NCBI RefSeq assembly: GCF_001509405.1
Contig: NZ_CP011502.1
Location: 1,612,001 to 1,676,000, forward strand
From: Aeromicrobium erythreum
Lineage (GTDB): Bacteria > Actinomycetota > Actinomycetes > Propionibacteriales > Nocardioidaceae
DNA length: 64,000 bases
Direction of reading: 5' to 3'
Shown: piece after piece, positions 6,851 through 12,961 of the stretch
How the letters are laid out: the number at the start of each line of letters is the position of its first letter
Numbering within the stretch: position 1 is the first letter of the stretch
Made by a program: the position numbers and the translations under genes
The notes under the pieces: model-generated
Databases searched by the model: none
What the model was told of the DNA's origin: nothing
What the model saw: the letters and a program-made list of their open reading frames with translations, nothing else

Positions 6851-8083
6851 GTGGCCCGACTCTCGACCCAGCGCCTGATCATGCGCCCCCTGCAGACGTG
6901 GTTCCTCTCCGTGGTCGGGATCGTCGCCGGGCTGATGATCACCACCAAGATCCGCAAGATCCTGCGCGGCGCGAACGACTCCACGTTCCCCACCGTCCCG
7001 CCCACCACGGTGCCGGTCGGGGAGGAGAACACGGCCACCACCTACACGTACGGCGAGGACCTGTACGACGACATGCTGGCGGCGATCCGGGGAGCCCGTA
7101 CCCGCGTGCTGTTCGAGACCTTCATCCTCAAGGGCGACGAGGTCGGCGAGGCGTTCAAGCGCGAGCTCGTCGCTGCCGCCGACCGCGGGGTCGACGTGCG
7201 GGTCATCTACGACGGGTTCGCGAACCTCGTCGTCCCGCGCTCGTTCCTGACGTTCCCGCCGGGCGTCCACGTGCTGCGCTTCCCGTTCCTCAAGACGGGC
7301 CTGCAGCCCTTCAACCCGCGACGTTGGGGTCGCGACCACCGCAAGATCCTCGTCGTCGACGACACGGTCGGCTTCGTGGGCGGGTACAACGTGGGCTCGC
7401 TGTACGCCACGCAGTGGCGCGACACGCACCTGCGCGTCGAGGGCTCGGCGGTCTGGGACCTCGACAACGCCTTCATCGACTTCTGGAACGACCTGCACCC
7501 GGTGCCCATCGAGCCGCTGGGGGAGGCCAGCTGGGAGCCGAGCGTCCGCGCCCACCGCAACGTGCCGCGCCAGCTCGTGTTCCCGATCCGCGGCATGTAC
7601 CTCGAGGCCATCGACCGCGCCCGGCACCACATCCACATCACGGCCGCCTACTTCATCCCCGACCACGACATCCTGCAGGCCCTCAAGGACGCCCGGTCGC
7701 GCGGCGTGGAGGTGACGATCATCGTCCCCGAGGTCAGCAACCACGTCGTCGCCGACTGGCTGTCGCGCGGCTTCTACGGCGAGCTGCTGCGCCACGGCGT
7801 GCGGATCCAGCTGTACCAGGACGCGATGGTGCACGCGAAGACCGCGACGATCGACGGCCAGTGGTCGACCGTCGGCACCGCCAACATCGACCGGCTCAGC
7901 CTGACCGGCAACTACGAGATCAACCTCGAGGTCGTCGACCCCGCCCTCGCCGAGCACCTCGAGACGGTGTTCGAGACCGACCTGGCGAACTGTCGCGAGC
8001 TGACCCTCGAGCACTGGCAGTCGCGGCCGATCGTCGCGCGCGCCTGCGAGCTGCTGCTGACGCCACTGCGTCCTCTGCTGTAG
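6851..8083 (+). CDS. Phospholipase D-like / cardiolipin synthase-type membrane protein
   Basis: A 410-residue member of the PLD superfamily, whose bacterial members make cardiolipin or other phospholipids by phosphatidyl transfer. An N-terminal hydrophobic segment (about residues 12-32) anchors it. Two HKD motifs are intact: HRKILVVDD with GGYN around 163-178 and HAKTATID with GTANIDRLS around 328-350. Between them lies the AAYFIPD region seen in cardiolipin synthases. It is shorter than the usual two-membrane-span Cls (about 480 residues) and has one anchor, so the exact substrate is uncertain. It stands alone after truB and ends just before a regulated promoter. Confidence 0.85.
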   Translation: MARLSTQRLIMRPLQTWFLSVVGIVAGLMITTKIRKILRGANDSTFPTVPPTTVPVGEENTATTYTYGEDLYDDMLAAIRGARTRVLFETFILKGDEVGEAFKRELVAAADRGVDVRVIYDGFANLVVPRSFLTFPPGVHVLRFPFLKTGLQPFNPRRWGRDHRKILVVDDTVGFVGGYNVGSLYATQWRDTHLRVEGSAVWDLDNAFIDFWNDLHPVPIEPLGEASWEPSVRAHRNVPRQLVFPIRGMYLEAIDRARHHIHITAAYFIPDHDILQALKDARSRGVEVTIIVPEVSNHVVADWLSRGFYGELLRHGVRIQLYQDAMVHAKTATIDGQWSTVGTANIDRLSLTGNYEINLEVVDPALAEHLETVFETDLANCRELTLEHWQSRPIVARACELLLTPLRPLL

Positions 8084-8091
8084 GCGCCCGG

Positions 8092-8125
8092 CGTCGATGA
8101 GAGGCCTCTCATCGACGTCTCACGG
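8092..8125 (+). promoter_or_regulatory. Operator with palindrome and 11-bp direct repeat (site 1)
   Basis: A perfect 26-bp palindrome (8092-8117) contains half-site CGATGAGA at 8095-8102 facing TCTCATCG at 8107-8114. A second same-direction copy, TCTCACGG, starts exactly 11 bp later (8118-8125). Direct repeats with an 11-bp period are how OmpR/PhoB regulators usually bind. A possible -10 (CAACCT, 8145-8150) lies 19 bp downstream and an AGGAGG at 8171. The same arrangement occurs at 11941-11971 in front of the two-component operon. Confidence 0.7.
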
Positions 8126-8180
8126 CGGGCTCACGACCCGCCAGCAACCTGGGGTCATCGCACCGACCTCAGGAGGATCC

Positions 8181-8546
8181 ATGAAGACCACCGCCCGTAC
8201 CGCCATCGCCGCCGTCGCCGGCACCCTCGCGCTCGGCACCGCCGGCTTCGCGCTCTCCAGCGCCCACGCCGACGCCGACCGTGACCCCATGCTCAAGCGC
8301 GACGACTCCACCACGTCATGGGTCGTCACCGCGGACGACAACGACGACGACGACCGCGACGACGAGCTGAGCACCAACGTCACGCGTCAGACGGCCAACA
8401 CCGCGAACACGACCCAGACCCGCAACACCGCCCCGACCCGCAACACGGCCCCGACCGCCAACACGGCCAAGACCGTCCAGTCGGCACCGACGAAGAACAC
8501 GGCCCCGACGGTGAACACCGCTCCGACGACCGGCACCGACCGCTGA
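8181..8546 (+). CDS. Small secreted Asn-Thr-Ala repeat protein
   Basis: A 121-residue exported protein of unknown function. The ATG at 8181 follows AGGAGG at 8171-8176. A classical signal peptide (MKTTARTAIAAVAGTLALG, cleavage probably after AHA near residue 31) is followed by an acidic patch rich in Asp (about residues 52-64). The C-terminal half consists of imperfect NTAPT/NTANT-type repeats (about 70-120). I do not recognise a family. The stop codon overlaps the start of the downstream kinase gene (TGATG), so the two are coupled. An operator shared with the nearby sensor-kinase operon sits 56-89 bp upstream. Confidence 0.8.
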   Translation: MKTTARTAIAAVAGTLALGTAGFALSSAHADADRDPMLKRDDSTTSWVVTADDNDDDDRDDELSTNVTRQTANTANTTQTRNTAPTRNTAPTANTAKTVQSAPTKNTAPTVNTAPTTGTDR

Positions 8547-9400
8547 TGTCCGACGACGCGTGGGGCCTGGCCGGGGGCGACGAGATCGCCCCCGGCCTCA
8601 CGGCCGTGAAGGACCTCGGCGGCGGCACCGTCTACGAGGCGTGGCTGGCCTTCGACGACCGGCTGCACGCACCGGTCGTCGTGAAGGTGCTGCGCCCCGG
8701 CCACGTCGACGACCCCGTCTCGCGGGTGGGACTCGACCGCGAGGTCGCGCTGCTCGCACGTCTGGCGCACCCCGGCCTCACGCGCGTCTTCTCCTACGAC
8801 GACGAGGGCGCCCGCCCCTACTTCGTCCTCGAGCACGTCGACGGGCCGAACCTGTCGCGGCTGGTCTCACGGCACGGTGCCGTGCCGGAGCACCAGCTGC
8901 TGCCCCTCGCGCTCGAGCTCGCGTCGGTGCTGCACTACCTGCACGGCGAGGGGGTCGTGCACCTCGACGTGAAGCCGAGCAACGTCATCATGGGTGCGCC
9001 CGCGCAGCTCGTCGACCTCTCCGTCGCGCTCGACGTCGACGAGGCCGCTGCCCTCGACCACGCAGTCGGCAGCGACGAGTACATGGCTCCCGAGCAGTGC
9101 GCGCCGGGGGAGCGCGGCACCGTCGGCCCCGCGGCCGACGTGTGGGGCCTCGGCGCGACCCTCTTCCGGGCCGCCGCCGGATTCCGCGCGTTCGACCGCG
9201 AGCCGCGCTGGTCACAGCTGCACGACGAGCCGAAGCCGCTGCCCGGCTTCGTCCACCGGGGAGCCGCCGACCTCATCAGGCGCTGCCTCGACGCCGACCC
9301 GGCGCAGCGCCCCACGCCGCGCGACGTCGCGGTCGAGCTCGAGCCGATGATCGCCGGGCTGCCGTCCGCGCGGCTGTCGGGCTTCACGCTGCGGCGGTGA
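8546..9400 (+). CDS. Serine/threonine protein kinase (soluble, Hanks type)
   Basis: A 284-residue single-domain Ser/Thr kinase without a membrane segment or PASTA repeats. Visible motifs are the glycine loop LGGGTVYEAW near residue 20, the ATP lysine in VVVKVL near 47, the catalytic loop HLDVKPSN near 139-146 (HLD instead of HRD) and the metal-binding Asp in DLS near 157 (DLS replaces DFG). MAPEQ at about 179 is followed by DVWGLGATLF. All catalytic residues seem present, so it is probably active. It starts inside the stop codon of the secreted repeat protein, which suggests a shared function or at least co-expression. Its substrate is unknown. Confidence 0.9.
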   Translation: MSDDAWGLAGGDEIAPGLTAVKDLGGGTVYEAWLAFDDRLHAPVVVKVLRPGHVDDPVSRVGLDREVALLARLAHPGLTRVFSYDDEGARPYFVLEHVDGPNLSRLVSRHGAVPEHQLLPLALELASVLHYLHGEGVVHLDVKPSNVIMGAPAQLVDLSVALDVDEAAALDHAVGSDEYMAPEQCAPGERGTVGPAADVWGLGATLFRAAAGFRAFDREPRWSQLHDEPKPLPGFVHRGAADLIRRCLDADPAQRPTPRDVAVELEPMIAGLPSARLSGFTLRR

Positions 9401-9407
9401 CCTCGCT

Positions 9408-9557
9408 TCAGTCCACCCGGTACCCGGCCGGGTCGAGGTCTGGCGTGTGGGCGGTAGGTGGCGCGCGCTTGCTGGGGCAGGGGTAGGCCACGCGCGGAAA
9501 CGAGCTCGCTTTCCGCGCGTGACCTACCTTCCGGCGCCTCAGTCCACGCGGTACCCG
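9408..9557. repeat. 131-bp segment bounded by direct repeats of the regulator 3' end
   Basis: The 19 bp at 9408-9426 match 9539-9557 at 18 of 19 positions; the second copy is the last codons of the response-regulator gene (GYRVD-stop on the minus strand). The period is 131 bp. Between the copies lies a 19-bp inverted repeat (9482-9500 and 9510-9528, one mismatch) around a 9-nt loop, plus a partial third copy of its arm near 9453. The gap holds no gene. Confidence 0.6.
9482..9528. terminator. Hairpin between convergent kinase and response-regulator genes
   Basis: Arms of 19 bp with one mismatch (GGTAGGCCACGCGCGGAAA and its near complement) flank CGAGCTCGC. It sits in the convergent gap and could act as a bidirectional terminator. 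The AAA/TTT pairs lie at the loop end of the stem, so no strong T-tract follows on either strand. Confidence 0.5.
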
Positions 9558-10198
9558 AGCCCCCGCACGGTGGTGACGAGGGAGGCGCCGAGCTTCCGGC
9601 GGAGGTAGCCGACGTACACGTCGACGACGTTGGAGCCGGGGTCGAAGTCGTAGCCCCACACGTGCGAGAGCAGCTGCTCGCGCGAGAGCACCTGCCCGCG
9701 GTGCGACATCAGCACCTCGGCGAGCGACAGCTCGCGGGCCGACAGCTCGACCTCGCGCTCGCCGACGTACGCGCGACGTCGGCGCAGGTCGAGGCGGACG
9801 TCGCCGGCGACCAGCTCGTCGTCGGGGGGAGGGGCGGCCGGGGCGCGCAGCCGCAGGCGGACGCGCGCCAGCAGCTCGGCGAAGCGGAAGGGCTTGCTCA
9901 TGTAGTCGGCCGCGCCTCCCTCGAGCGCCTGGACGGTGTCGGTCACCGAGTCGCGGGCCGTCAGCACGATCACGGGGAGCTCGGGTCGTTCGGCCTGCAC
10001 GCGCTCGAGGATCGTGAAGCCGTCGAGCCCGGGCAGCCCGATGTCGAGCACCATGAGGTCGAACGGGCCGGTCAGCGCGTAGTCCAGGCCGCTCACGCCG
10101 TCGGCGACGACCGTCGGCGTGAACCCCTCGGCCTTCAGGCCCTTCGCGACGAACGAGGCGATCCGCTCCTCGTCCTCGACCACGAGAATCCGGTTCAC
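9539..10198 (-). CDS. OmpR/PhoB-family response regulator
   Basis: A 219-residue regulator with a receiver domain (phospho-acceptor Asp about 52 in LMVLDIGLP, conserved Lys about 102 in SKPF). Its winged-helix DNA-binding domain runs from about 125 to 219 and ends VRGLGYRVD. The GTG at 10198 lies 6 nt after AGGAGG and overlaps the sensor-kinase stop codon (GTGA), so the pair is coupled. OmpR-type regulators bind direct repeats about 11 bp apart; two such sites occur in this block, one ahead of its own operon and one ahead of the secreted protein/kinase pair, making it the obvious candidate to bind both. Confidence 0.95.
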   Translation of the reverse strand: MNRILVVEDEERIASFVAKGLKAEGFTPTVVADGVSGLDYALTGPFDLMVLDIGLPGLDGFTILERVQAERPELPVIVLTARDSVTDTVQALEGGAADYMSKPFRFAELLARVRLRLRAPAAPPPDDELVAGDVRLDLRRRRAYVGEREVELSARELSLAEVLMSHRGQVLSREQLLSHVWGYDFDPGSNVVDVYVGYLRRKLGASLVTTVRGLGYRVD

Positions 10199-11616
10199 CA
10201 CAGTCCTCCTGTCGCGATGACGAGCCGGAACGTCGCACCTGACGTCGCCCCGGGCGGGTCGAGCACCACCCGACCCTCGTGCGCCTCCATGATCGCGGCC
10301 ACGATCGACAGGCCCAGCCCGAAGCCGGCCTGCTCCCCGTCGCCCTGCGTGAACCGCTCGAAGATCGTCCCACGCAGTGCCGACGGCACCCCGACGCCCG
10401 TGTCGCGCACCCACAGCTCGACGTGCCCGTCGTGCACCCGCGACCCGACACCGATCTCGGCGCCAGGCTGCGTGTGCCGGACGGCGTTGTCGGCGAGCTG
10501 GAGCAGCGCCTGCGTCAGCCGTTGCGGGTCGACGTCGACGTGGGTGCGGGCCACCGCGTCGAGCACCCACGCGCGGTCGGCGAGACCCCGTGCGCGCTCG
10601 AGGGCCCCGAGGGTGAGGGCCTCCACGTCGGTGCGCTCGAGGCGCACGAAGTCCGGACGCTCCGCCTTGGCGAGCAGCAGGAGGTCGTGGACGAGGCGGG
10701 TCATCCGGTCGATCTCGTCGAGCAGCAGCGTGCGCGTGGTGCGGACGTCGTCGGGGTCGGTCGGGTCGAGCACCTCCAGGTGCCCCTGCAGCACGGTGAG
10801 CGGGGTGCGCAGCTCGTGGGCGGCGTCGTCGAGCAGGCGACGCTGGCTCGCGAACGCCTCCTCGAGCCGGTCGAGCATGTCGTTGAAGGTGCGCTGCAGC
10901 TCGGTGAGGTCGTCGTTGCCGGTGACCTCGAGACGACCGCCGAGGTCGCCCTCGCTGATGCCCCGGGCGGTCTCACGCAGCCGTCGCACGGGGGAGAGCA
11001 GCCGCCCGGCGAGCCACGACGCGACGGCGGAGATGAGGATGACGGAGAGCGCGCTGAGCAGCGCGTACGTGACCATCAGCTCGCGGAGCTGGGCGCGCGA
11101 GCCGTCGACGTCGTGGGTGACGACGAAGGCAGCGCGCTGGTCGCCCTGCTGCACGGGCTGCACCGCGACCCGGAAGGTCCGCCCGTCGACGTCGAGGTCG
11201 GCGACGCCGCCGCGGCGCGTGAGTCGCTCCACCAGGGCGGGGAACCGGGGCGACGTGCGCAGCACGCGCTGCCCCTCGCCGACGAAGGTCGGGGTGCCCG
11301 ACACGGGGAAGTGCCACAGGTTCTCGTCGGTGTCGGGGACGTTGCGCGAGAGGAAGAACGCGATGAGGCGGTCGGGGCTGGTGAACGGCCGGCCCGTCTC
11401 GGGATCGACACCCTCCGCCTGGAGCCGACGCAGCTCGCCGACCTCCTGGCCCAGGCTCGCGTCGATCACCCGGTCGATGCGCTGGGACTCCAGCACGAAG
11501 AGCGTCGCCCCGACCGCGACGAGCGCCGCCGCCGTCAGCAGGGCGACGGCGGCGGTCAGACGCTGGCGGACGGAGAACCGGGGCGGCCCGTCCACGCGGG
11601 GGTCAGTCGTCGTCAT
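10195..11616 (-). CDS. Sensor histidine kinase (two-component)
   Basis: A 473-residue membrane sensor kinase. TM1 spans about residues 19-42, an extracytoplasmic sensor region 43-180, TM2 181-204 and a HAMP domain to about 257. The phospho-acceptor His is at about 267 in AAHELRTP. The ATPase has the N box ADNAVRHT and G boxes DTGVGV and GFGLGLSI. The ATG at 11616 is used; it lies within the last codons of the upstream acidic protein gene (14-nt overlap). The paired regulator follows with a 4-nt overlap. The external domain matches no ligand-binding family I recognise. Confidence 0.95.
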   Translation of the reverse strand: MTTTDPRVDGPPRFSVRQRLTAAVALLTAAALVAVGATLFVLESQRIDRVIDASLGQEVGELRRLQAEGVDPETGRPFTSPDRLIAFFLSRNVPDTDENLWHFPVSGTPTFVGEGQRVLRTSPRFPALVERLTRRGGVADLDVDGRTFRVAVQPVQQGDQRAAFVVTHDVDGSRAQLRELMVTYALLSALSVILISAVASWLAGRLLSPVRRLRETARGISEGDLGGRLEVTGNDDLTELQRTFNDMLDRLEEAFASQRRLLDDAAHELRTPLTVLQGHLEVLDPTDPDDVRTTRTLLLDEIDRMTRLVHDLLLLAKAERPDFVRLERTDVEALTLGALERARGLADRAWVLDAVARTHVDVDPQRLTQALLQLADNAVRHTQPGAEIGVGSRVHDGHVELWVRDTGVGVPSALRGTIFERFTQGDGEQAGFGLGLSIVAAIMEAHEGRVVLDPPGATSGATFRLVIATGGLW

Positions 11617-11908
11617 CGTCGTCCCGGTCGCCGTCGCGCTCGTCGATGGGTCGCGGCGTCTGCGGGACGCGCTCGTAGTCGTCATCGTCATCGTCATCGT
11701 CGTCGTCCCGGTCGTCCTCGCGGGATCCCGACGGGGTGGGCGTCGGCGAGAGCGTCGGCCGCGGCGTCTCGGTCGACGTGGGCACCGTCACCGGGGAGTA
11801 GTCGACCTGCGGTGCGTCCTCCTGCGCCACGACCCGCGCCACGACGATGCCGAGCAGCACGAGGCCGACGGCCACGACGATCGGCACGAGCAAGCGGGTT
11901 CGCGTCAT
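11603..11908 (-). CDS. Small acidic single-pass membrane protein
   Basis: A 101-residue protein starting MTRTRLLVPIVV, with one transmembrane or signal-anchor segment (about 5-27), a Thr/Pro/Ser linker and a strikingly acidic tail with a run of ten Asp near residues 68-77 and another Asp run at the very C-terminus. I do not recognise a family. It is the first gene of the operon with the sensor kinase and regulator, so it may be an accessory that binds cations or modulates the sensor. The Asp run is encoded by a GTC/ATC trinucleotide tract (11678-11708) that could change length by slippage. An upstream in-frame extension to 11941 is less likely because it would run toward the operator. Confidence 0.75.
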   Translation of the reverse strand: MTRTRLLVPIVVAVGLVLLGIVVARVVAQEDAPQVDYSPVTVPTSTETPRPTLSPTPTPSGSREDDRDDDDDDDDDDYERVPQTPRPIDERDGDRDDDDDD

Positions 11909-11914
11909 GGCGAC

Positions 11915-11920
11915 ACTGTG
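11915..11920 (-). promoter_or_regulatory. Possible -10 (CACAGT) of the two-component operon
   Basis: On the minus strand CACAGT lies 6 nt before the ATG at 11908 and 20 bp downstream of the operator at 11941-11971, nearly the same distance as between operator site 1 and its putative -10. This would give a leaderless transcript. Confidence 0.35.
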
Positions 11921-11940
11921 CCGCACGCCCGCGCACGCCA

Positions 11941-11971
11941 CGATGAGACGTCGATGAGAGTCCTCTCATCC
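11941..11971 (-). promoter_or_regulatory. Operator with palindrome and 11-bp direct repeat (site 2)
   Basis: CGATGAGA occurs at 11941-11948 and again at 11952-11959 (11-bp period), followed after 4 bp by inverted TCTCATCC at 11964-11971. Read on the minus strand this reproduces site 1 (8095-8125) half-site by half-site with the same spacings. It lies 33 bp upstream of the small acidic protein gene and also close upstream of ribF on the other strand. Confidence 0.7.
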
Positions 11972-12004
11972 GACGTTCCCGAGCGGGTGTGGCACAGTTC
12001 AGGG

Positions 12005-12961
12005 GTGGGCACCTGGACAGACCGCGGCGGCGCCTCGACGGCCCCGCTGGGCACCGCGACGGCGGTCACCATCGGCACCTTCGACGGGGTCCACCGAGGC
12101 CACCAGGCCCTGCTGCGGCGTACCCGCGAGGTCGCGGAGGGCCTGCCCGTCGTCGCCGTCACGTTCGACCCGCACCCGGTGGCGGTCTTCGCGCCCGACC
12201 GGGTCCCGCCGCGGCTGACGTCGCTGCAGCGCCGGATCGAGCTGCTGCACGAGCCCGCGCCCGGCGTGCGGGGGGCGGACCACGTGCGCGTGCTCGACTT
12301 CGACCGTGCGATGGCGGGCTGGTCGCCCGAGGAGTTCGTGGAGCGCGTGGTGGTCGAGGAGCTCGGGGCCCGGCACGTCGTCGTCGGCGAGAACTTCACC
12401 TTCGGCGCGAAGGCGGCGGGGACGACCGAGACGCTGCGCGACCTGTGCGACCGGCACGGCTGCGACGCCAGCGCCTTCACGCTCGTCGGCGACGGGCACG
12501 GGGCCGACGGCGTGCCGTGGTCGTCCACACGGGTCCGTGCGCTCGTCGCGGAGGCCCGCCTCGAGGAGGCCGCCGAGCTGCTCGGGCGTCCGCACGAGGT
12601 CGACGGCGTCGTGACCCCGGGCGACCAGCGCGGACGCGACCTTGGGTTCCCCACCGCGAACGTCCCCGTGCAGGCCGACTACTGCGTGCCGCCCGACGGC
12701 GTCTACGCCGGACGGCTGCTCACCGGCGACGCCGACTACCCCGCGGCGATCTCCGTGGGCACCAACCCCACCTTCGCCGGGACCGAGCGACGCGTGGAGT
12801 CCTACGTCATGGACCACGGCCACGACCTCGACCTCTACGGCCGGCCCGTGCGGGTACAGCTCGTCTCGCACCTGCGCCCGATGGTCGCGTACCGGGGCGT
12901 CGACGCGCTCGTGGAGCAGATGCACGCCGACGTCGAGCAGGCACGCGCGGCGCTCGCCTGA
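12005..12961 (+). CDS. ribF: Bifunctional riboflavin kinase / FAD synthetase
   Basis: RibF converts riboflavin to FMN and then FAD. The 318-residue protein has an N-terminal nucleotidyl transferase domain (TIGTFDGVHRGHQAL near residue 24, with the HxGH-like nucleotide site; later VVGENFTFGAKAAG and WSSTRVR). A C-terminal riboflavin kinase domain begins near 195 (GRDLGFPTANVP, then GVYAG and SVGTNPTF). The GTG at 12005 gives the usual family length; an in-frame ATG at 11954 would add 17 residues but lies inside the operator. It is normally next to truB; here it is separated from it by the kinase/two-component block. Confidence 0.95.
   Translation: MGTWTDRGGASTAPLGTATAVTIGTFDGVHRGHQALLRRTREVAEGLPVVAVTFDPHPVAVFAPDRVPPRLTSLQRRIELLHEPAPGVRGADHVRVLDFDRAMAGWSPEEFVERVVVEELGARHVVVGENFTFGAKAAGTTETLRDLCDRHGCDASAFTLVGDGHGADGVPWSSTRVRALVAEARLEEAAELLGRPHEVDGVVTPGDQRGRDLGFPTANVPVQADYCVPPDGVYAGRLLTGDADYPAAISVGTNPTFAGTERRVESYVMDHGHDLDLYGRPVRVQLVSHLRPMVAYRGVDALVEQMHADVEQARAALA

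Follow-up and report, generated by a model that had tools for sequence, protein, structure and literature searches.

Do two matching operator-like sequences place a secreted protein, a Ser/Thr kinase and a two-component system under one regulator? The question is raised by a locus in a 64,000-nucleotide stretch of the Aeromicrobium erythreum genome (the window), where one such sequence precedes the genes of a predicted exported protein (SecP) and a Hanks-type Ser/Thr kinase domain protein (STK), and the other, on the opposite strand, precedes an operon encoding a small protein with an acidic tail (AcP), a membrane histidine kinase (HK) and an OmpR/PhoB-family response regulator (RR). An initial annotation had proposed that the regulator probably controls both units and itself, and the comparisons below support this in that the sites adjoin the RR gene, are kept before the same units in relatives and track the RR gene. 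We consider it highly likely that the locus is an autoregulated two-component regulon, in which RR is predicted to bind both operators and would probably activate both units. The features concerned are the following (window positions).

8096..8134, plus strand: Operator 1, inverted GATGAGA followed by TCTCATC, TCTCACG and GCTCACG half-sites in 11-bp steps; 20 such sites aligned from relatives
8145..8150, plus strand: putative -10 hexamer of the SecP promoter, CAACCT; no -35-like hexamer was found here, and the repeats sit in its place
8181..8546, plus strand: SecP, predicted exported protein with a signal-like N-terminus, a KR[DE]D motif, an Asp stretch and a Thr-rich triplet-repeat tail (NTAPTKNT)
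8546..9400, plus strand: STK, apparently soluble protein with a Hanks-type Ser/Thr kinase domain (Pkinase, 118.7 bits)
9539..10201, minus strand: RR, OmpR/PhoB-family response regulator (Response_reg and Trans_reg_C above cut-off)
10195..11619, minus strand: HK, membrane histidine kinase with HAMP, HisKA and HATPase_c domains and an outer domain predicted to be PAS/PDC-like; start codon tentative
11603..11908, minus strand: AcP, small protein, hydrophobic in an N-terminal segment and ending in a poly-Asp tail
11915..11920, minus strand: putative -10 hexamer of the AcP-HK-RR operon, CACAGT
11942..11969, minus strand: Operator 2, inverted ATGAGA and two direct half-sites 11 bp apart; 17 such sites aligned from relatives

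Two operators of common design precede two convergent units

The full operator consists of an inverted ATGAGA arm and TCTCAT-type direct repeats with an 11-bp period. In site 1, on the plus strand, inverted GATGAGA (8096-8102) is followed by GGCC, by TCTCATC (8107-8113) and, 11 bp on, by TCTCA (8118-8122), and in site 2, on the minus strand, the same order is formed by ATGAGA (11969-11964), TCTCATC (11959-11953) and TCTCA (11948-11944). These coordinates agree with the shared layout described in the initial annotation, except that its two direct half-sites for site 1 are joined by a third direct repeat (GCTCAC, 8129-8134), a repeat that site 2 lacks as read from the window sequence. Numbered from the T of the first TCTCATC, which is position 0, the ATGAGA arm lies at -10 and the direct half-sites at 0 and 11, with a further one at 22 in site 1. 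The -10-like hexamers start 38 bp (site 1) and 39 bp (site 2) beyond the point where the first direct half-site begins, so that the distances of 19 and 20 bp first given for the two sites keep their relation, and the third repeat of site 1 stops about 9-10 bp ahead of the putative -10. In site 1 the left arm and first repeat together make up a perfect 18-bp palindrome; in site 2 this palindrome is broken by a mismatch at its centre. A sigma-70 consensus scan of 8000-12100 found no promoter with both hexamers. The SecP-STK unit on the plus strand is convergent to the AcP-HK-RR unit on the minus strand.

Scanned across the whole genome, as had been suggested, the sites prove near-unique, and they are kept in relatives. 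The 16-mer core TCTCATCGACGTCTCA has two exact matches in 3.63 Mb, which are sites 1 and 2, and the next-best places (two) each carry 2 mismatches. The full operator ATGAGANNNCTCTCATNNNNNTCTCA, allowed up to 3 mismatches, has four matches in the genome (the two sites, an overlapping opposite-strand match on site 2 and one distal site) and none for a reversed control. Within the window, a scan with TCTCATCGNNNTCTCA returned two exact matches and one with a single mismatch.

The sites accompany the response regulator in relatives

RR orthologues of at least 71% identity were present in 22 of the 37 same-genus genomes searched, that of G016 being a partial match, and the nearest RR in the named collection comes from an A. 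choanae bin (78% identity), a contig of which matches one of the same-genus genome G184 without a difference over 8.7 kb. The pattern RTGAGANNNCTCTCAYNNNNNNYTCAY was scanned over 58 genomes, sites being counted anywhere in the genome. By hand count, a site with at most 1 mismatch occurs in 20/22 RR-bearing genus genomes and in 0/15 without RR (Fisher p 1.5e-8, kinship ignored), four of the latter (G001, G002, G014, G044) being less than 85% complete. With 2 mismatches allowed, the counts become 21/22 and 3/15, and the genus has 67 matches where the reversed pattern has 5. Sites of this kind are not widespread beside unrelated genes, 25 of the 30 zero-mismatch sites in the genus lying within 4.5 kb of the RR gene, and in relatives carrying the same operon they precede the same two units. 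In 20 site-1 and 17 site-2 sequences, chosen by eye and aligned, the half-sites are conserved and the spacers variable, and the -10-like hexamers keep well conserved the A at their second base and the T at their last. Two loci, L095 and L104, carry a second, diverged HK-RR pair in tandem, the second RR being 57% and 53% identical, respectively, to the window RR.

The same arrangement extends across the family (Nocardioidaceae), where RR (E <=1e-82) was found in 105 of 197 genomes. A set of 101 loci was assembled from the window, 20 genus loci and 80 of the other 84 RR-bearing genomes; G078, G185, G188 and G199 fall outside it. In 90 of these loci the 2.8 kb upstream of RR contain a site with at most 2 mismatches, and in 88 an opposite-strand site, at the same threshold, lies downstream of RR; the reversed controls gave 0 in both cases. 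An STK orthologue is present in 85/101, always convergent to RR. The arrangement with the kinase, which the initial annotation had thought would be an unusual design, is not peculiar to this genome.

The wider survey took the best 80 named actinobacterial loci by RR match, of which 78 could be evaluated for operator matches in the 900 nt preceding the HK match. The best mismatch count was 0 in 13 loci, 1 in 6, 2 in 8, 3 in 12, 4 in 26 and at least 5 in 13, so that 65/78 have 0-4 mismatches, and the reversed-region control never fell below 5. A small ORF (open reading frame) with an acidic tail follows the operator in 24 of the 27 loci with at most 2 mismatches, and 16 of these 24 start 60-62 nt from the motif start, a distance that, together with the -10 position, suggests a leaderless message. 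The operator precedes acidic-protein/sensor operons in several other actinobacterial families as well. Contigs duplicated between the surveys (L179/L265, L182/L289, L184/L278, L194/L319, L196/L285) were handled by keeping the two locus sets separate, with the exception of the 26-slot inspection described below, which mixes genus loci with six named ones.

Products of the two units

Reading frames were checked with Pfam, domain calls being made at curated cut-offs. RR scores 91.7 bits against PF00072 and 88.3 bits against PF00486, both above cut-off. In HK the HAMP, HisKA and HATPase_c domains are all above cut-off and H268 is invariant in 56 aligned sequences; an AlphaFold2 model of its outer part is PAS/PDC-like (pLDDT 95), and the nearest solved folds, the outer domains of a chemoreceptor, WalK/YycG, CusS, CpxA and PhoQ, are distant and name no ligand.

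STK is 284 residues long, its kinase domain spanning 21-261, and its ATG shares one base with the SecP stop codon. K47, E66, HLD141, K143, N146 and D157 do not vary across 21 aligned sequences; the glycine loop departs from the usual form (GGG in place of GxGxxG), and the DFG position reads DLS, DFS or DLG in the alignment, with the Asp retained. Pfam gave no PASTA match, and the score against the PknB PASTA kinase model NF033483 (103.5 bits) lies below the cut-off of 450.

Neither SecP nor AcP matches any Pfam model above cut-off or any NCBIfam model at E 0.01. SecP has 21 homologues, no function being named among the matches listed, and those from named organisms come from Aeromicrobium. The AcP start codon lies only 6 nt past the -10-like hexamer (11906-11920), and similar spacing is seen in relatives, so that its mRNA is likely leaderless; the acidic tail and the start-codon distance recur in relatives.

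Operator 2 sits in the 96-bp gap (11909-12004) between AcP and the divergent ribF, whose product has FAD_syn and Flavokinase domains and whose start is taken as 12005. RR might also affect ribF. A separate CACAGT hexamer, at 11993-11998, belongs to this gene.

The Ser/Thr content of the exported protein tracks the kinase

Among the 58 genomes a kinase orthologue (E <=1e-45) is present in 15, all of which bear RR. Inspection of the first 26 site-1 slots suggested a relation between the kinase and the protein encoded beside it: in the 21 slots that include the kinase the exported protein is rich in Ser/Thr (20-35%), whereas in the 5 without it the protein has 7-14% Ser/Thr and 26-43% Asp/Glu. 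The relation was then scored by one scripted rule in the 101-locus family set, within which 20 of these 26 slots fall. An operator-linked exported-type ORF was found in 82 of 84 untruncated kinase-bearing loci, with 14-39% Ser/Thr (median 23%), and the 6 ORFs scored from kinase-negative loci have 0-13% and are mostly Asp/His-rich (Mann-Whitney p 2.4e-5), only L270 and L298 among these 6 being new. A C-terminal signature like TNDRSRNDTR is present in 47/82 kinase-positive and 0/6 kinase-negative ORFs. The Ser/Thr residues recur every third residue (0.42 at lag 3 and 0.43 at lag 6, background 0.27).

The contrast between Ser/Thr-rich and acidic proteins is sharpest in Aeromicrobium, since the Nocardioides-type positives themselves have about 20-30% Asp/Glu. 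Kinase-negative L270, which has a 2-mismatch site, is not clearly acidic (23% Asp/Glu/His against a median of 22% in the positives). The picker of exported ORFs is heuristic, combining a hydrophobic segment with a ribosome-site score, and may err, as for example in L336 and L270. Left unscored were the truncated loci L278, L282, L300 and L324, and, because no operator-linked ORF was found, the kinase-positive L288 and L304 and the kinase-negative L090, L105, L295, L303, L305, L333 and L335. In loci with a pair of operator-linked ORFs the choice fell on the ORF closest to the kinase, a rule that dropped the Asp-rich ORF in L093 and the second ORFs in L275 and L293. L093 has both forms together: of its tandem minus-strand operators, at 8857 and 9471, one precedes an Asp-rich and the other a Thr-rich exported protein with the kinase.

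Some operators in other families stand before a gene for an unrelated, APH-fold kinase-like protein, found within the fetched flank in 15 of the best 80 named loci. Five such genes are as follows.

L193:7852-9045 and L227:3268-4461: APH-fold kinase-like genes above the Pfam cut-off
L197:7249-8478, L239:1381-2604 and L252:7208-8533: APH-fold kinase-like genes related by sequence to those of L193/L227

Seven operator-linked exported-type ORFs from six loci with an APH-fold kinase have 18-38% Ser/Thr, against 7-17% in five ORFs from loci with neither kinase (p 0.003); two of the seven (L193, L237) also carry Asp-rich tails.

Further predicted members of the regulon

The two sites had been taken to define the regulon. 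That they share one remains the favoured reading, but the set is not complete: a third, weaker operator with 11-bp repeats lies in this genome at G000:C1:687572-687598 (L159:3573-3599), and also in G042, about 85 bp ahead of a lipoprotein gene. The own-genome lipoprotein scores 16.9 bits against PF03413, below the cut-off of 24, and is here named PepSY-like; a related operator-linked protein in G023 (L168) reaches 39.7 bits, above the cut-off. The remaining five zero-mismatch sites of the genus, all distal, stand before genes of exported-type proteins that carry RTX repeats (G047, G007), bactofilin domains (G005, G006) or PepSY domains (G023).

A model for the regulon and its alternatives

In the proposed mechanism an envelope signal would be sensed by the PAS/PDC-like outer domain of HK, which would phosphorylate RR; RR dimers would then occupy the repeats and stand in for a -35 element in recruiting RNA polymerase, much as PhoB-type activators recruit polymerase from repeats that replace the -35. 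The products would be an anchored poly-Asp AcP, more HK and RR (feedback), SecP and STK, with the PepSY-like lipoprotein joining from the distal site, and the output would likely be a more anionic or cation-binding cell surface. The poly-Asp, PepSY and RTX character of the outputs hints at cations or cationic peptides as the signal.

Several observations weigh against this model or narrow it. Activation rather than repression is predicted from site position only. The TCTCATCGNNNTCTCA window test is weak alone, since 19/100 shuffles also give three matches at up to 2 mismatches, and the Fisher test takes no account of shared descent. In the 21 genomes outside the genus there were 37 matches at up to 2 mismatches and 11 for the reversed pattern, so that single distant matches there are less secure, and the Streptomyces loci among the best 80 mostly have 3-4 mismatches. 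Within the genus, G009 (L105) bears an RR orthologue yet yields no site even with 2 mismatches allowed, the best that G016 (82% complete) offers is a 2-mismatch site, and the sole zero-mismatch site of G047 is far from RR, the near one having 2 mismatches. The left arm reads CTAAGA rather than ATGAGA in 10/17 aligned site-2 sequences (L088-L097). Finally, the 2.8-kb region upstream of RR lacks a site within the 2-mismatch limit in 11/101 family loci, two of them (L100, L263) ending early at contig ends; six genus loci (L098, L099, L102, L264, L265, L266) keep site 1 and have no RR-upstream site, and autoregulation may have been lost or altered in them.

Could the operators be artefacts of chance or composition? 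With as many as 2 mismatches tolerated, the window test is loose and gives nothing unusual, but near-uniqueness across the genome and conservation measured against the reversed controls leave this with a negligible probability. A different dimeric regulator might bind the palindrome GATGAGAGNNCTCTCATC, with RR a bystander, and the 18-bp palindrome built from the left arm and first repeat, which in several relatives matches the other strand too, fits such a protein. Yet sites with at most 1 mismatch track RR, sites accompany the HK/RR operon in several other actinobacterial families, and the 11-bp direct repeats fit an OmpR-family protein; moreover, where the palindromic left arm has changed to CTAAGA, the direct repeats are retained in all 10 sequences, and we hold a second regulator to be very improbable. 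If RR itself binds, it could repress both units, the signal relieving repression, and the closeness of the repeats to the putative -10 means that a bound protein could block polymerase. The failure to find a -35-like promoter fits an activator-dependent promoter, however, and the third repeat of site 1 stands at the distance from the -10 familiar from PhoB-type activation, so that repression is improbable and activation by RR is the reading that we carry forward.

What the kinase does within this regulon is a separate matter. The tracking of kinase presence by Ser/Thr richness suggests that STK may act on the exported protein, SecP being the favoured candidate substrate. In a fuller form of this proposal an anionic surface would be reached by two interchangeable routes, either an Asp/His-rich protein without a kinase or a Ser/Thr triplet-repeat protein phosphorylated in the cytoplasm before export by the co-translated kinase, so that one two-component system would switch on a phosphoprotein scaffold together with its dedicated writer, and an unrelated APH-fold kinase would have been recruited to the same task elsewhere. 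We think this fuller form rather unlikely. SecP-type ORFs display no prominent kinase consensus (K/R at -3 and -2 of Ser/Thr, positions that kinases often prefer, 0.16 and 0.17 against 0.17) and the two proteins differ in compartment, for which reasons phosphorylation of SecP is kept as a bold reading. To SecP being an ordinary mucin-like exported protein, perhaps O-mannosylated, with STK having unrelated cytoplasmic targets and only the promoter being shared, we give about an even chance; it is compatible with the regulon. The Ala-Pro-Thr/Ser arrays of SecP resemble glycosylated linkers, SecP has an export signal where none is apparent in STK, and K/R at -3 or -2, each taken singly, is at background. 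Glycosylation alone, on the other hand, predicts no link between Ser/Thr richness and a kinase in the same slot, as seen across 82 and 6 loci and again, as a similar trend, with the unrelated APH-fold kinase.

Comparison with known systems

The system resembles PhoB/OmpR-type regulons in its receiver and winged-helix regulator, its HAMP-HisKA sensor, its 11-bp repeats replacing the -35 and its predicted autoregulation; it differs from them in the added inverted arm and in its outputs, a Ser/Thr kinase together with exported proteins that are acidic or built of triplet repeats. The best NCBIfam matches of RR and HK are TIGR01387 and TIGR01386, a likeness to CzcRS/CopRS/SilRS, and the predicted outer domain of HK is distantly like those of CusS and CzcS. 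Membership in these heavy-metal subfamilies was considered and rejected, RR scoring 202.2 bits and HK 196.4 bits, well below the respective cut-offs of 279.2 and 292.55, and no efflux gene was found among the operator-linked genes examined in this genome.

A likeness to the TcrA (Rv0602c)/Rv0603 system is provided by the PepSY member L168, whose best PDB match is 2kgy/2lra, a "possible exported protein" that we take to be Rv0603 of M. tuberculosis; TcrA itself is likened by description. A sensor system Rv0600c-Rv0603c of M. tuberculosis is mentioned in one report (PMC10743970). A review describes, in Microbacterium, a two-component system, UipRS, upstream of the uranyl-binding PepSY protein UipA, a single-pass envelope protein with a negatively charged metal-binding face, and gives the sensing role as not yet shown (PMC8963506). 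UipRS-UipA is the closest described case in spirit, a two-component system near a metal-binding envelope protein, with PepSY-type members in the predicted regulon here; the likeness is one of description, and unlike that case the poly-Asp and Ser/Thr-repeat proteins adjoin the system here, the PepSY genes lying elsewhere. STK shares the Hanks-type catalytic core with PknB-type PASTA kinases but differs in its length and in the PASTA and NF033483 results given above. Among the open-licence full texts searched, a scope outside which most subscription papers fall, no paper appeared to describe the operator or the pairing.

Signalling by two-component systems and signalling by Hanks-type kinases are commonly regarded as distinct fields. 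An operator family that is conserved throughout Nocardioidaceae, and can be traced into several further families of actinobacteria, links a histidine-kinase system with a dedicated Ser/Thr kinase and an exported protein built of repeats, and a set of exported proteins without names becomes one predicted regulon. The arrangement raises the question of whether a cytoplasmic kinase may phosphorylate a protein that is later exported.

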